Notes: generated by a model not told the origin, from the letters alone. Shown: positions 38,284 through 60,293, numbered from the stretch's first letter. The stretch is DNA of 64,000 bases from Candidatus Hecatella orcuttiae (GCA_002011035.2 MTLY02000001.1:127342-191341); one strand, 5' to 3'. Numbers and translations: made by a program.

Positions 38284-39219
38284 TTATTTTACAATCCCTA
38301 TTATTGTTTGAGGCTTGCTGAAAAGATTCTCCACTTCTTGAAAACTGCTCTTTGGCAAAGTATAGAGTAAAACGGTAGCAGGACCTGCTGATTTATTCAA
38401 ATCAAGTTCCAAGGGTATTCTACGGGAAAATTTTACCTCTCGACCGACCCAAGAAACAAGCGCTGTAGCCTCGGCGACGATTCCCCGAGACCCTACGGGG
38501 ACAATTTCATGAACGAATTTTTTCTGCAAGAGGAACATCACATCTAACAGGTCTGCAGTTTCTCCTCTCGCTTCATGGGTTAGTACTTCGTTTCCAGCAC
38601 ACGGCCGACCGAGCGCTACCACCAGATCTCCTTTACAGCTTTTCCCTATTCTCAGTTCTTTTTCGCGGGCGATGCCGATAACCGTCACGCCGAGGCCTGT
38701 TTGCGAAGTTTTGATGCTTTCCTCCGTGTCAAGGAGGACCATTTCATCGACATCCAAACCTAGGAGTTTAGTTTCGCTTTCCACCCCCTTTAGAATCTCT
38801 TCACCTGCAGGGCTCCTTTCAGCGCTTAAAGCTACAGAAACAAGGGTTGGATGGGCGCCGGTTGACAGAACTTTTATCAGTCCAACCCTAGCCATGAATT
38901 TACCTAAAACTTCATTCTTCACTTGAATGACGTCGTCTGGTTTACAGCCAATGCCTCCAGAGGAAGATACACTCATGATCAATGCGAAATTGGGTGGAAA
39001 CCTAGCAATGATCACATCTCTTACCTTTGTGAAGCTGATCTTCGCTGGCACTAGGCTGAAGGCAGCTGGGTAGATGAGTTCGCCGATGTTTTCAGCTGCA
39101 TTCAAGTAGAAGAGTAGCGCCTGCCGTGCAATTTCAGATCTGCTCAGCGAGTATTTTTTAGAGAGTTTATCAATCTCGTGGAAAAGTCTTGCAGGGAGTC
39201 TGAGATTTAATATTTTCAA
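38284..39219 (-). CDS. Ribbon-helix-helix domain fused to PurM/AIRS-like domain (putative regulator)
   Basis: Residues 1-40 form an RHH DNA-binding domain (ILNLRLPARLFHEIDKLSKK, SLSRSEIARQALLFYL). The rest is an AIR-synthase-related domain like that of the 40-kb-region neighbour at 39811: GGIGCKPDD, QTGLGVTVIG, KGDLVVALGRP, FVHEIVPVGSRGI, KSAGPATVLL. In the neighbour GGVG is preceded by SCDSC; here by SVSSS, so the conserved Asp is Ser (residue 85). Loss of this Asp next to an added DNA-binding domain suggests a ligand sensor. I prefer TTG 39219 over ATG 39240, because the TATA box at 39248-39260 predicts transcription from about 39228. It is divergent from the ECF/PurM genes. Confidence 0.8.
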   Translation of the reverse strand: MKILNLRLPARLFHEIDKLSKKYSLSRSEIARQALLFYLNAAENIGELIYPAAFSLVPAKISFTKVRDVIIARFPPNFALIMSVSSSGGIGCKPDDVIQVKNEVLGKFMARVGLIKVLSTGAHPTLVSVALSAERSPAGEEILKGVESETKLLGLDVDEMVLLDTEESIKTSQTGLGVTVIGIAREKELRIGKSCKGDLVVALGRPCAGNEVLTHEARGETADLLDVMFLLQKKFVHEIVPVGSRGIVAEATALVSWVGREVKFSRRIPLELDLNKSAGPATVLLYTLPKSSFQEVENLFSKPQTIIGIVK

Positions 39220-39246
39220 TGTATGACAAATGTAATACATAATGTA
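39218..39246. promoter_or_regulatory. Putative RHH operator: three AATGTA repeats
   Basis: AATGTA occurs at 39218-39223, 39229-39234 and 39241-39246, spaced 11 and 12 bp, about one helical turn. They lie on the leftward core promoter between TATA and start codon. RHH proteins typically bind such tandem 5-7-bp sites. The presumed ligand is the adjacent RHH fusion protein, an inference. Confidence 0.55.
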
Positions 39247-39247
39247 A

Positions 39248-39260
39248 CTATTAAATATTA
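39248..39260. promoter_or_regulatory. Quasi-palindromic TATA element shared by divergent genes
   Basis: The core ttaaatatta reads taatatttaa on the other strand, so one element could serve both directions. Distances are about 35-45 bp to the ATGs at 39294/39300 and about 30-40 bp to the TTG at 39219. Confidence 0.5.
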
Positions 39261-39293
39261 TTTTCCCACTCTAGGGATAGCAGGCTAAAAATT

Positions 39294-39821
39294 ATGATTA
39301 TGGAGAGAGCTCTCATGAGTAAGCGTTACTCCAAGTCCAAAACTTTGCATGTAGCCCGGTGGGGTATTTTTTCAGCTTTGAGTGTGGTGGGTTCCCTTAT
39401 ACCGTTTCCAAGCCCTGTGGGAACCATAGCCTTTGACTCTTTTCCCGGCTATTTTGCAGCCCTCTATTTTGGGGTTATGGACGGGGCGGTGATATTTGCC
39501 ATCGGACACTTAGCCACGTCCATTGTCCATGGTTTCCCCCTTGGTTTTTGGCATTTCTTGATAGCTTTAGGCATGGCAGTTGTAGGGGTTGTTGTAGGAA
39601 TCGTGCATAAGGTCATTTCCAGAGTTTGGGGGTTCATTCCGGCAACGATTGCGGGGATAACCGCGAATACTGCCATGTTCCCCTTGGCAGTGCCTGTGAT
39701 GGGTTGGGCTGGTTCGCTGCTGCTGGTGCCCTTTCTGGCAGTTGCTTCAACTTTAAACGGCATTCTAGCCATGTTCATATTCATAGCGATAAGGAGGAGA
39801 AAAATCCTCGTTGAGGGCTAG
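39294..39821 (+). CDS. ECF transporter S component (CblT-like)
   Basis: A 175-residue integral membrane substrate-binding subunit of an energy-coupling-factor importer, with about five or six helices. The N-terminal ARWGIFSALSVVGSLI contains the A-x-x-x-A helix that docks the EcfT subunit, followed by FPSPVGTIAFDSFPGYFAAL and GHLATSIVHGFPLG. The layout resembles CblT, the alpha-ribazole permease of Listeria and Geobacillus. The neighbouring PurM-like gene supports that link, because CblS, the alpha-ribazole kinase, is a PurM relative. No EcfA/EcfT genes are in the window. The start may be ATG 39294, 39300 or 39315. Confidence 0.8.
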   Translation: MIMERALMSKRYSKSKTLHVARWGIFSALSVVGSLIPFPSPVGTIAFDSFPGYFAALYFGVMDGAVIFAIGHLATSIVHGFPLGFWHFLIALGMAVVGVVVGIVHKVISRVWGFIPATIAGITANTAMFPLAVPVMGWAGSLLLVPFLAVASTLNGILAMFIFIAIRRRKILVEG

Positions 39822-40578
39822 AAGACAGCCCAGAGAAGTGTTTGTAGAAACTCTGAGGGATTTAATTGTTCTCAGAATCAATAAAACATATCTGACCGTT
39901 AGCTGCGACTCCTGCGGAGGAGTAGGTTTTAACCCTCTAGACACTTTGAAGGTTAAAGGTGTGGTTCTGGGGAGATTTCTGGCACGAGTGGCTCTTATGG
40001 AAACGCTCTCAGTTAACGCTCAACCTTTAGCGTGTTCGCTTACATTGTCAATAAATCCGAGTCCTGCATGGAAGGGGTTTTTAGCCGGCGTCCACGGGGA
40101 GTTCAAAGCTGCTGGTTTAAAAGCCTACGATGTGAAGTTTATTCTCAGCTCTGAAAAAAATTTCCCCGTCAGACAGACAGGAGTCGGCATCACCATCTTG
40201 GGGGCTACGAGAAGCCTTAAGATTGGAAGAGTGGAAAGGGGAGATTTACTTGTAGCCGTGGGTAAACCGCATGTGGGACGCGAAGTCTTGAAAGCTGAAA
40301 CAGGCCGTGAAATCGCAGACCTCAGAGATTTAAACAAACTGTTAAAGACAAGTTTCGTTCATGAAATTATCCCCGTTGGCTCCCAAGGTATTCTTCATGA
40401 GGCCAAAGTTTTAGCCAAAAGTTCAGGGCTGAATTTTAAACCCTTCAAGTCAACAATAAACCTCAAGAAGCCAGCCGGCCCTTCAACGGTCATCTTGGCG
40501 GCTGTGGAGGAAAATAAAATGAGAGACCTCGCCGAACACGCCAATAAGCCCCTAACTCGGATTGGCTTTTTCACGTAG
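39811..40578 (+). CDS. AIR synthase-related (PurM-like) protein, candidate alpha-ribazole kinase (CblS-like)
   Basis: A 255-residue PurM-superfamily ATP-binding protein. Visible motifs: SCDSCGGVG with Asp33, LARVALMETLSV, QTGVGITILG, RGDLLVAVGKP, FVHEIIPVGSQGILHEA and KKPAGPSTVIL. TTG start at 39811 overlaps the ECF gene by 11 bp, so both are translationally coupled. The combination of an ECF S component and a PurM-like kinase matches the CblT/CblS alpha-ribazole salvage pair, giving alpha-ribazole phosphate for the lower ligand of cobamides. HypE, ThiL and SelD relatives are alternatives. It is a paralogue of the RHH fusion at 38284. Confidence 0.75.
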   Translation: MRARRQPREVFVETLRDLIVLRINKTYLTVSCDSCGGVGFNPLDTLKVKGVVLGRFLARVALMETLSVNAQPLACSLTLSINPSPAWKGFLAGVHGEFKAAGLKAYDVKFILSSEKNFPVRQTGVGITILGATRSLKIGRVERGDLLVAVGKPHVGREVLKAETGREIADLRDLNKLLKTSFVHEIIPVGSQGILHEAKVLAKSSGLNFKPFKSTINLKKPAGPSTVILAAVEENKMRDLAEHANKPLTRIGFFT

Positions 40579-53753: not shown

Positions 53754-55160
53754 TTATTCTAGCGGGATCCCGTGGTCTACGAGTTCCTTCTTCACCTTTC
53801 GATATATAGCAAGCCATTCGGGAATAGGCTTCAAGGTCTTCAAGTCGACGCACTCCTCGAACTTTTTCCCGGCGGGAGGTTCCTTTAATTTATCTTCATA
53901 TCTGGCAACTAAGGTTTTCACGATCTCGTTTGCGTCTGAGCGTTTAACCCCAGCCGAGGCTTTACCTACTTCCCCTGCAAAGCCCGCTTCAAGGCCGCTG
54001 AAATAGTGCGGATACCTCCCCATGCGAGGGCGGATGCCCATTATGCACGCAGTGCCGGAGGACGCATGCCCGATGCACTGGGCTGCCGCTTCGTAGAGAA
54101 GCATGTCGGTGCACGGCCCTGCCACCGGGTTGATGTTGAAGAGAGTGATGTTATGAGTGTTCCTACTCTGGGATTGGCATGTGAGGCTGTTGGCCCAGAT
54201 GGACTCCCGGCTGCTGCCTCCGAAAAGATGCCGAAGGTCGAAGACGGCTGCGGAAGGTATCGTCGCCTGATGCACCACGAGGATCAGAACGGCCGCAGCG
54301 TTGGCTGTTACCACGCATCCCTCCGGTGAACCGGAGTAGCCGCCGATCATAGAGTAATGGGCCGCCCCGACCGGACCGTTAAAATTGAGAGCCTGAGCTG
54401 TCTTGTTCAGCAGGGGATAGTTCGTCTTCAGGCATGAGGGGGGAAGACTCCACATGAGGTTCACCTGCGGGTCGGCAGCGTCCACAGTTCCATACGCGCC
54501 GATGGCGCCCCATCCGCTCACATCGGAGACGAGGAAAGGATAGGACATGCCGGGTCTTCCAGCCCTTCTCACCCCTTCCTTGGTCAACACGGCTTCCAGC
54601 TTCCCATAGACGGTCTCATAAGGGGTGGAGCCCTTAAGCGGCCTTCCATAGGCGGTGACGAGAGTAGGCTGGTGGATGATGTCCACCGACCTATATTGGG
54701 CTGCAGCTTGAACGGCTAAAACGAAGAGCTCCTCGGAGCACTCGGTGTCGAAGGGACCTAGAAACGTCGTCGGAGCCTGTCCGTCTTCCGGCTTCCTCGC
54801 TTTGCATACAACCTTGTCTAAGCCGGTTCCAAGTGCTACTTGGCTTCGCGCTTCTCTCAAAGCGCTTTTGAGTTCTTCCTCGGTGAATCTAATGTTCCTT
54901 TCAGTGTCAGTGCAGAGCATGCCTACTTCGACGGCGAACTCGAAGCCGGCTTCCCAGAACTTATCTGCCAGACTGTCGTCGGCGGGCACAGGGTTCTTGG
55001 GGTCGCAGACGCCCTCCAGCCCGTGTTCTTTAAGCTTCTCCGTCACTTTCGTCGGAATAACTTTGGTGTCCCAGTCCTTGACCTTGCAGACGGGGCCTGT
55101 GTGAATTCTATCCAAGACTTCTAAAAAAGAAACACTCATCAACCAACTCTCCTTGCTCAT
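53754..55160 (-). CDS. Trimethylamine methyltransferase (MttB) family protein, non-pyrrolysine
   Basis: A 468-residue TIM-barrel methyltransferase of the MttB superfamily (COG5598). It has the N-terminal VSFLEVLDRIHTGPVC, GGYSGSPEGCVVTANAAAVL, and the C-terminal GFAGEVGKASAGVKRSDANEI. The frame is open throughout with no internal TAG, so no pyrrolysine is used; such members demethylate quaternary amines such as glycine betaine. It is translationally coupled to the corrinoid protein (ATGA overlap of 4 bp). The substrate is unknown. It is a diverged paralogue of the gene at 58920. Confidence 0.92.
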   Translation of the reverse strand: MSKESWLMSVSFLEVLDRIHTGPVCKVKDWDTKVIPTKVTEKLKEHGLEGVCDPKNPVPADDSLADKFWEAGFEFAVEVGMLCTDTERNIRFTEEELKSALREARSQVALGTGLDKVVCKARKPEDGQAPTTFLGPFDTECSEELFVLAVQAAAQYRSVDIIHQPTLVTAYGRPLKGSTPYETVYGKLEAVLTKEGVRRAGRPGMSYPFLVSDVSGWGAIGAYGTVDAADPQVNLMWSLPPSCLKTNYPLLNKTAQALNFNGPVGAAHYSMIGGYSGSPEGCVVTANAAAVLILVVHQATIPSAAVFDLRHLFGGSSRESIWANSLTCQSQSRNTHNITLFNINPVAGPCTDMLLYEAAAQCIGHASSGTACIMGIRPRMGRYPHYFSGLEAGFAGEVGKASAGVKRSDANEIVKTLVARYEDKLKEPPAGKKFEECVDLKTLKPIPEWLAIYRKVKKELVDHGIPLE

Positions 55161-55846
55161 TCTTTTATCATCGGCTCAGGGAGAGGCGGCTTCACCCTTT
55201 TTCCCAGAAGCTGTTTGCACACCTCCACCCCATCGTCGGCCAGTCTTCCGTATCCGTCGGCGCCGATCTCCCTCGCCCATGCGGGGGTTATGGCGCCTCC
55301 TCCAATTATAATGTAATATCTATTCCGGAGACCCATGTCTTTCAGGTAGTCTGCGACCTCCTGCTGGTAAAGCCGGGTGGTGGTCATTAGGGAGGACATG
55401 GCTATGATGTCTGCTTTGACTTTTTCAGCTTCCTCCACGAACTTCATAGACGGCACATCTGAGCCGAGGTCGTGGACTTCGAATCCGGCTGCCGAAAGCA
55501 TCACAGCCACGATGTTTTTGCCGATATCGTGAATGTCCCCCTTCACCGTTCCTATGACAACTTTTCCCGCTATGGCTTCACTTCTCCTTTCAGCCGTCAA
55601 CTTGAAAAGAAGCACTTCCACACCAGCCTTGGTGGCGTCTGCCGCCAGCATCACTTGAGGCAGAAATATTTCACAGTCATGAAACTTCTGGCCGACCACA
55701 GCCATACCTTTTCCAAGCCCTTCTTTGATGGCTTTCAGAGGGTCTATACCCGTCTTCACAGCTTCTTCAGCCGTGCTCTTCGCTGCCTCCTCATCCATTT
55801 CAATAACGGACCTAGCCAGCCTCTCCAAAATGTCAACTTCAGACAA
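55157..55846 (-). CDS. Methyltransferase cognate corrinoid protein
   Basis: A 229-residue B12-binding protein. The N-terminal helical cap (1-85) contains DPLKAIKEGLGKGMAVVGQKF; the Rossmann-like domain has the Co-ligand motif GDIHDIGKN with His106, then the MSSLMTTTR loop and GGGAITPAWAREIGADGYG. It carries the methyl group from MttB to a downstream methyltransferase that is not in the window. It is the first gene of the mttB1 transcript; TATA box at 55890-55904. Confidence 0.93.
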   Translation of the reverse strand: MSEVDILERLARSVIEMDEEAAKSTAEEAVKTGIDPLKAIKEGLGKGMAVVGQKFHDCEIFLPQVMLAADATKAGVEVLLFKLTAERRSEAIAGKVVIGTVKGDIHDIGKNIVAVMLSAAGFEVHDLGSDVPSMKFVEEAEKVKADIIAMSSLMTTTRLYQQEVADYLKDMGLRNRYYIIIGGGAITPAWAREIGADGYGRLADDGVEVCKQLLGKRVKPPLPEPMIKE

Positions 55847-58919: not shown

Positions 58920-60293
58920 GTGGTAAGTTTTCTTGAAGTCTTAGACAGAGCTCACAGCGGCCCCGTGTGCGAAGTAGGTGAATGGGATAAGAGAGTGATA
59001 CCAGGGAAGATCATGGAGAAGCTTAAGGAACACGGGCTATCGCGAACATGCAGCCCTGAAAACCCTGTCAACACGGATGATGGTTTGGCAGATAAGTTCT
59101 GGGAAGCCGGCTTCGAGTTCGCCGTGGAGACGGGAATGCTCTGCATCAACACAGAGAGAGTCATAAAGTTCAGTGAAGAAGAAGTCAAAGAAGCCCTGCG
59201 GCTGGCTCCCAAAGAAATCACGGTAGGGGAGAGCAGCGACAAGGTGGTGATAAGAGCCCGAAGGCCAGAGGACCCTAGGCCGCCGGTTTTCAGGTCGGGG
59301 TTTGGAATAGTCTCCGAGGAGCTTTTCATGCCCATAATGCAGGGCATCGCTGAAAACAGGGTTATAGACATGTTGTCCGCGCTTTCCACATCCACAACCC
59401 ACGGTCGACCTGTCATAGCAGGCTCACCCTACGAGTCCCTCGCAGGCCTCAACGAGGGAGCTGCTGTGAAGGAAGTGGCGAGGCGGGTAGGCCGGCCGGG
59501 CATCCCTTTCATAGGCCCAGCCCTCAGCCCCACAGAATACGGTCTGCTGGGCGGATATGGAGCACCTCACAGCTACACGCGGAACGACATGGGGCTGGTC
59601 CTCGCCATCACGGAGTTGAAAACCTCCTACGGCTTACTGCATAAGGTTGTCAAGGTTCAAAGCTATGGAGGCTATGTTTACGGAAACCACTGGTCCATGA
59701 TAGGCGGCTACGTAGGCCCGCCTGAGGGAGCGGCTGTGGCGGCTGTGGCCGCTACGCTGCTTCAAGTCCTAGTGCACAGGTGCGCTGTTCCCTGCGGGGT
59801 GATTTACGATTTCAGGTATGACGGCAACGTAGGCCGGGAAGCCGTGTGGGCTGCCAGCGTGGTGGAGCAGGGGGAAAGCCGAAACACCCAGCTCTTGATA
59901 GGGGGAATAACCAGCCAGGTTTCAGGCCCGTGCACGGAGGAAATCCTCTACGAAATGGCCGTGGGAGCCATCGAACAGGCTGTGTCCGGGTGCGCAGCCA
60001 ACATAGGAAACCGCTCCGCGGGAGGAAAACACAAAGACCACGTAAGCCCGCTGGAGCAGAAGTTCGGCGCAGAGGTTGTCAAGGCATGTGCGGGGATGAA
60101 ACGCTCAGACGCCAATGAGGCTGTGAAGGCCCTTCTGCCGAAATATGAAAGCAAGCTGAGAAATCCTCCGCTGGGTAAAACCTTCCCGGAATGCTACGAT
60201 GTGAAAACCCTCAAACCCAAGGACGATTGGCTCAGCATCTACAAAAAAGTGAAAAGAGAACTGGTGGACCTAGGCGTACCTTTAGACGTTTAA
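58920..60293 (+). CDS. Trimethylamine methyltransferase (MttB) family protein, non-pyrrolysine
   Basis: A 457-residue MttB-superfamily enzyme. The N-terminal VSFLEVLDRAHSGPVCEV matches the paralogue at 53754, as do GGYVGPPEGAAVAAVAATLL and the C-terminal KACAGMKRSDANEAVKALLP. There is no internal TAG, so pyrrolysine is not used. Compared with the paralogue, the middle of the barrel is clearly different, which suggests another substrate. GTG start at 58920. It is not coupled to a corrinoid gene; the corrinoid proteins nearby are at 55157 and, truncated, at 63819. Confidence 0.92.
   Translation: MVSFLEVLDRAHSGPVCEVGEWDKRVIPGKIMEKLKEHGLSRTCSPENPVNTDDGLADKFWEAGFEFAVETGMLCINTERVIKFSEEEVKEALRLAPKEITVGESSDKVVIRARRPEDPRPPVFRSGFGIVSEELFMPIMQGIAENRVIDMLSALSTSTTHGRPVIAGSPYESLAGLNEGAAVKEVARRVGRPGIPFIGPALSPTEYGLLGGYGAPHSYTRNDMGLVLAITELKTSYGLLHKVVKVQSYGGYVYGNHWSMIGGYVGPPEGAAVAAVAATLLQVLVHRCAVPCGVIYDFRYDGNVGREAVWAASVVEQGESRNTQLLIGGITSQVSGPCTEEILYEMAVGAIEQAVSGCAANIGNRSAGGKHKDHVSPLEQKFGAEVVKACAGMKRSDANEAVKALLPKYESKLRNPPLGKTFPECYDVKTLKPKDDWLSIYKKVKRELVDLGVPLDV

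Follow-up and report, generated by a model that had tools for sequence, protein, structure and literature searches.

A probable archaeal alpha-ribazole salvage pair and its predicted RHH-PurM regulator in a divergent locus of Candidatus Hecatella orcuttiae

Three adjacent genes in a 64,000-nucleotide stretch of DNA from Candidatus Hecatella orcuttiae, here called the window, are taken as a whole best explained as an archaeal alpha-ribazole salvage pair accompanied by a dedicated regulator, a dead kinase fused to a ribbon-helix-helix (RHH) domain (RHH-PurM), and we consider this explanation likely. Three open reading frames were called, at 38284-39240 on the minus strand and at 39294-39821 and 39811-40578 on the plus strand. 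Their strands and coordinates agree with the original prediction, in which an RHH-bearing PurM-like gene diverges from an ECF S component gene that overlaps a second PurM-like gene by 11 bp. The four motifs noticed at that time (GG-V/I-G, QTG-x-G, PVGS-x-GI and AGP-x-TV) were all found in both PurM-like proteins, of 318 and 255 aa, which are 40% identical over 255 aa (E 1e-54). The same divergent three-gene arrangement was also found in other genera of the class, and it is therefore more than a chance juxtaposition. The features of the locus are the following.

38284..39240, minus strand: predicted RHH-PurM fusion regulator; the open reading frame encodes 318 aa and is kept in 36/257 genomes of the class
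38293..39048, minus strand: CblS-like PurM-fold domain, residues 65-316, predicted to bind the effector, from identity to CblS and matches of the structural model
38965..38967, minus strand: codon for Ser92, which stands where the superfamily has Asp, from the alignment with CblS and the AIRS superfamily
39103..39210, minus strand: predicted RHH DNA-binding segment, residues 11-46, from Pfam RHH_1
39220..39239, no strand: predicted operator, the palindrome TGTATGACAAATGTAATACA, lying between cblTS and the regulator gene and conserved before RHH-PurM genes
39250..39256, plus strand: ATTAAAT, a TATA-like box in the promoter of cblTS, 11 bases past the operator (offset 11-13 in 32/32 promoters)
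39294..39821, plus strand: CblT-like ECF S component, predicted alpha-ribazole importer, 175 aa, from PF12822 and identity to a named CblT
39811..40578, plus strand: predicted CblS-family alpha-ribazole kinase, 255 aa, TTG start, from identity, tree and the kept Asp

Relatives of the 318-aa protein begin at the equivalent of its residue 8, a TTG at 39219, which is probably the true start and would give a protein of 311 aa; if this is right, the operator at 39220-39239 is not coding.

The 175-aa protein matched the ECF_trnsprt family (PF12822) with 41.9 bits (E 1.3e-10, cut-off 30.7). A plasmid protein search matched Lactiplantibacillus plantarum MF1298 plasmid pMF1298-5, which carries an operon of CblT, CblS, CobS and CobC homologues (PMC6722938); the 175-aa protein was 30% identical to the CblT of this plasmid (E 8e-13 for the single comparison) and the 255-aa protein 31% identical to its CblS. 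A CblS homologue in Listeria lies ahead of cobU-cobS-cobC. In a tree of 88 proteins, a branch with SH-aLRT 98 separated bacterial CblS, archaeal CblS and RHH-PurM from the PurM, HypE, ThiL and SelD of this genome and two other AIRS proteins, while a single RHH-PurM clade was compatible with the tree and weakly supported. Both PurM-like proteins of the locus fall with CblS, and not in the ThiL or HypE clades whose recovery would have counted against the original prediction. As to gene linkage, which it had named as another possible objection, cblTS in Methanomethylicia lies tail to tail with CobY-like, CobS, CbiS, CbiB-like and CobD-like genes (the CbiB-like and CobD-like genes assigned by sequence inspection), and archaeal CobT, CobD, CbiB and CbiS adjoin these genes in several genomes of Bathyarchaeia relatives; no thiamine or hydrogenase gene was found beside the annotated loci. 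Membership of the 255-aa protein in ThiL was considered and rejected, its best NCBIfam match reaching 11.2 bits of a cut-off of 204 and the tree placing it apart from the ThiL of the same genome, as was membership in HypE, SelD or PurM, all three of which are encoded elsewhere in the genome and branch apart. Identity to the named proteins and the CblS group of the tree support the assignment of 39294-40578 to an archaeal CblT/CblS-like salvage pair, as first claimed, with predicted alpha-ribazole transport and kinase activity.

The genome offers a pathway into which the pair would fit. CobS, CbiS, CbiB, CbiP and CobD genes form one cluster, beside genes for a BtuC-like permease and a BtuF-like binding protein, and EcfT (PF02361) is present. 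Archaeal CobT is absent from this genome, so CblS would be the likely source of alpha-ribazole-phosphate, and CblTS would fill the missing step. The 1.75-Mb genome gave 22 matches to the B12-binding domain, many of them in proteins of about 215-245 aa, the size of corrinoid proteins. The window itself also encodes a corrinoid protein and two monomethylamine methyltransferases of the MtmB family (53754-55160 and 55157-55846 on the minus strand, 58920-60293 on the plus strand). In classical MtmB genes an in-frame stop encodes pyrrolysine; both MtmB reading frames here are open at full length under table 11, and are therefore without it. A study of B12 synthesis in Bathyarchaeia reported BtuFCD, CbiZ and BzaCDE homologues, and CblS goes unmentioned in the portion of that study available to us (PMC11697101).

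The RHH_1 family of Pfam (cut-off 20.5) gave 20.4 bits for the 318-aa window protein, and 28.7 and 30.8 bits (the latter for L038) for relatives, while AIRS matched the window's 255-aa protein weakly (0.011) and reached 25.4 bits, with a cut-off of 24, in the RHH protein of one relative. A PDB sequence search with both PurM-like proteins returned no meaningful match. An AlphaFold2 model of the 318-aa fusion (mean pLDDT 74, pTM 0.71) matched ThiL, PurM (AIR synthetase) and SelD in a structure search, the best match being 8yku (E 1.7e-14).

What sets the fusion protein apart from CblS is an aspartate common to the superfamily, which we take to be a Mg-ATP-binding residue. It is D in 55/55 CblS proteins having a residue there, as in the PurM, ThiL, HypE and SelD of this genome and two further AIRS proteins, and T or S in all 26 RHH-PurM proteins aligned (Ser92 in the window protein); it belongs to the CDSSGG motif, which reads CDSCGG in the window CblS, where the residue is Asp33 (codon 39907-39909). 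A first alignment, in which one mis-sorted short protein was moved and an RHH-less fragment (L041) and a truncated copy were set aside, had the Asp lost in 34/34 RHH-PurM and kept in 17/17 full-length short proteins. RHH-PurM is also changed at the Cys before this Asp and at a later Glu, and retains most other CblS motif positions. With T or S in 26/26 aligned sequences we do not class RHH-PurM as a kinase: its PurM-like domain has probably lost that activity and is probably not catalytic, and the retention of the motifs without the Asp would be as expected of a ligand-binding pseudo-enzyme. The earlier idea of a paralogue of the kinase turned into a sensor is favoured by the lost Asp and the conserved operator, but the duplication is old and did not take place locally.

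Among the 257 genomes of the class (Bathyarchaeia) surveyed, many of them MAGs, 42 hold a relative, with RHH-PurM in 36, the short protein (CblS) in 19 and both in 13; these genomes are related, and such counts are inflated and not independent. Of the 36 RHH-PurM genomes, 23 are without CblS. CobT was found in 33/36 genomes with RHH-PurM and in 0/6 with CblS but without RHH-PurM, which suggests that a need to balance lower-ligand routes may be what preserves the regulator, the window's genome being an exception. The closest named relative of the fusion protein belongs to a Candidatus Hecatellales archaeon (68% identity). Outside the class, one full-length RHH-PurM was found among 398 genomes sampled across the phylum (G355; L258, 1813-3286), divergent from a CblT homologue with 38% identity to the window CblT and with a palindrome between the two; CblS went undetected in this genome at the threshold used, and the contig measures 3.8 kb, so an assembly error is possible. 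Methanomethylicia have the short protein without the RHH fusion.

A 20-bp palindrome, YRYAYTACRNNYGTARTRYR, was recognised by a weight matrix in 29/34 promoters upstream of RHH-PurM genes, within about 20 nt of the start codon in relatives (26-bp matrix window); the other five have no recognisable matrix site, and one of them (L075) appears to hold a shifted palindrome. The window operator has one mismatch to the exact pattern, abuts the TTG of the regulator and is the only site within one mismatch in its whole genome, where a wider regulon was looked for with a 2-mismatch scan and dismissed as noise (two more sites, four in the control). Across 0.64 Mb of neighbourhood sequence the weight matrix gave 26 sites scoring at least 18, where simulated sequence leads one to expect 0.1. 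Its training set was these same RHH-PurM promoters, and the genome-wide scan with the exact pattern is a more independent test: it gave matches in 29/257 genomes, namely 25 of the 36 holding RHH-PurM and four of the 221 others (Fisher p 3e-22), while a reversed control pattern matched in 2/257. Covariation between half-sites was weak in separate sites, those not shared with an RHH-PurM promoter (32/5000 permutations as high), and in the cis sites of RHH-PurM promoters there was none beyond column composition (2849/5000); with this negative result it was dropped as evidence for the palindrome. In G247, a genome without RHH-PurM, a small RHH gene of another kind has a very similar palindrome at its start (L203, 6134-6153), with further copies about 1 kb on.

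Separate sites occur before cblTS in three genomes (L068, L069, L070), before CobT and an ECF S gene in G156 and, in genus g57, before the same second ECF S family in 12 RHH-PurM genomes and an ADH-like/TrpD-like operon in four; some single-mismatch sites elsewhere resemble noise. Control of the salvage pair by RHH-PurM, as first proposed, is favoured by the site before cblTS, yet the predicted regulon is broader than these two genes and the regulator often occurs without CblS. Pfam gives no family for the second ECF S protein, whose model had ECF S subunits as top matches (probability 0.99 but E 0.15) and whose gene comes after CobT in several genomes; the assignment is based on these matches and on that position. 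An operator also precedes a second ECF S gene in G118 (L201, 4983-5002), an 82% complete genome in which RHH-PurM was undetected. At four g57 loci (L189, L193, L197, L220) the ADH-like gene with its operator is followed, where the locus was fully read, by a TrpD-like phosphoribosyltransferase gene, and at L189, L197 and L220 a RibD-like reductase gene is divergent beside the ADH-like gene. The TrpD-like phosphoribosyltransferase is a candidate lower-ligand enzyme. A link with CoA biosynthesis was considered for the pantoate-kinase-like and CoaD-like adenylyltransferase genes (identified by sequence inspection) that lie beside RHH-PurM in many g57 genomes, and rejected: they are convergent and without operator, hence mere neighbours.

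When the 32 predicted target promoters were aligned on the operator alone, without gaps, all had A at base 8 past the operator and TT at bases 12-13. The TATA-like box starts at an offset of 12 in 26 of them, 11 in five and 13 in one, and the operator sits directly upstream of BRE/TATA in every one.

The mechanism we propose would run as follows. CblT may take in alpha-ribazole, or a related lower-ligand nucleoside, via an ECF module; CblS would phosphorylate alpha-ribazole to alpha-ribazole-phosphate, whose joining to AdoCbi-GDP would fall to CobS, and this route would stand in for CobT, absent here. RHH-PurM, a CblS paralogue that has acquired an RHH domain at its N terminus and is probably no longer active as a kinase, would bind the 20-bp palindrome between the two transcription units, activating cblTS and, in relatives, also cobT, the second ECF S gene and the ADH/TrpD-like operon, and repressing its own gene, whose transcription start the operator probably covers. 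The effector would be alpha-ribazole or alpha-ribazole-phosphate. We infer DNA binding by RHH-PurM, the effector, the sign of control and the CblTS substrate alike; the identity of the effector is suggested by descent alone, the better candidate being alpha-ribazole-phosphate, since this compound is also a product of CobT and CblS is missing from 23 of the genomes that have the regulator. In archaeal promoters, activation is associated with sites upstream of BRE/TATA, and repression with sites over the transcription start (PMC4158304; CopR, PMC7830388). Since the operator lies upstream of BRE/TATA in the targets and probably over the start of the regulator's own transcript, activation of the targets with autorepression is the reading we favour, with some assurance, over plain repression. 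A wider proposal is that RHH-PurM represents a new family of transcription factors in archaea, with a dead alpha-ribazole kinase as sensor of alpha-ribazole or alpha-ribazole-phosphate, which would activate the available lower-ligand routes (CblTS, CobT with its own ECF S component, perhaps the TrpD-like phosphoribosyltransferase) and repress itself. Such a regulator would be a protein equivalent, acting on the lower ligand, of the cobalamin riboswitches often found ahead of cblTS in bacteria. We find this proposal neither probable nor improbable.

RHH regulators are mostly repressors, and RHH-PurM might repress the same genes by excluding TFB from its place beside BRE until released by ligand, as the few bases between the end of the operator and BRE would allow on steric grounds. 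We hold this to be possible but rather doubtful: the spacing of 11-13 bases, fixed in 32/32 targets, is more than exclusion requires, neither TATA nor the start site is covered by any of the target sites, and the upstream position accompanies activation in the archaeal promoters studied. An equally tentative alternative concerns the ligand, as the pair could handle, and the regulator sense, another lower-ligand nucleoside, such as the alpha-riboside of adenine or of another benzimidazole. Substrate range is not readable from sequence, and a cblTS-bearing Lactobacillus makes pseudo-B12, but the characterised CblS prefers alpha-ribazole, both according to the part of one report available to us (PMC6167548).

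The remaining readings are much weaker. Retention of most CblS motif residues, and the precedent of RbkR (PMC8305020), would agree with a RHH-PurM working as kinase and regulator at once; the replacement of the Asp in 26/26 sequences and the altered Cys and Glu make this improbable. It is very improbable that the RHH protein is an antitoxin-like or otherwise unrelated regulator lying beside cblTS by accident, with the palindrome a generic RHH site: the site before an unrelated RHH gene in G247 speaks for it, but most separate sites precede members of a few gene families, in genomes holding RHH-PurM, and a divergent CblT with the palindrome recurs in another class. Hardly credible at all is a role of the PurM-like proteins in ThiL or HypE metabolism, with the cobamide link due to chance; the closest solved folds are those of ThiL, as is the best NCBIfam match of the 255-aa protein, far below its cut-off, but the tree sets both proteins apart from the ThiL and HypE of this genome, and cobamide genes are adjacent in several genera and in bacteria.

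If the preferred reading of a salvage pair with a dead-kinase regulator is true, RHH-PurM would regulate specifically the supply of lower ligands for cobamides, in a class with members rich in cobamide-dependent proteins. Like RbkR and ThiR, it would also be an archaeal instance of an enzyme domain from vitamin metabolism turned transcriptional sensor. A predicted regulon can be read directly from the operator and its constant distance to TATA, and its targets mark the second ECF transporter and the TrpD-like phosphoribosyltransferase as candidate lower-ligand genes. In a literature search, with most subscription journals outside its reach, neither an RHH-AIRS fusion nor an archaeal CblS was found described.

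Compared with known systems, the pair shares with CblT/CblS of Firmicutes the two families, their order and adjacency and the slot in the pathway, CobT being absent in this genome. Of eight bacterial cblS loci scanned, five had a cobalamin riboswitch, placed 0.1-1 kb upstream of cblS in four, whereas the archaeal locus has a predicted protein regulator with its own operator beside the genes. Regulators derived from enzyme domains are a known kind, and ThiR carries an enzyme-like ThiN domain. RHH-PurM resembles ThiR as an archaeal vitamin regulator with a predicted regulon, and differs from it in DNA-binding domain, ligand domain and vitamin (PMC10746257). In Pyrococcus, the same source lists ThiR together with a predicted cobalamin regulon whose regulator is given as unknown (PMC10746257); archaeal control of cobalamin is what that regulon and the one predicted here have in common. 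RbkR, the archaeal riboflavin kinase-regulator, likewise fuses a DNA-binding domain to a kinase of vitamin metabolism (PMC8305020), while RHH-PurM has RHH in place of HTH, a PurM fold, and a kinase domain from which the shared Asp is lost. The arrangement proposed here, with a palindrome just upstream of BRE for activation or over the start site for repression, is also that of TrmBL1/Tgr and CopR, which are unrelated proteins responding to unrelated ligands.
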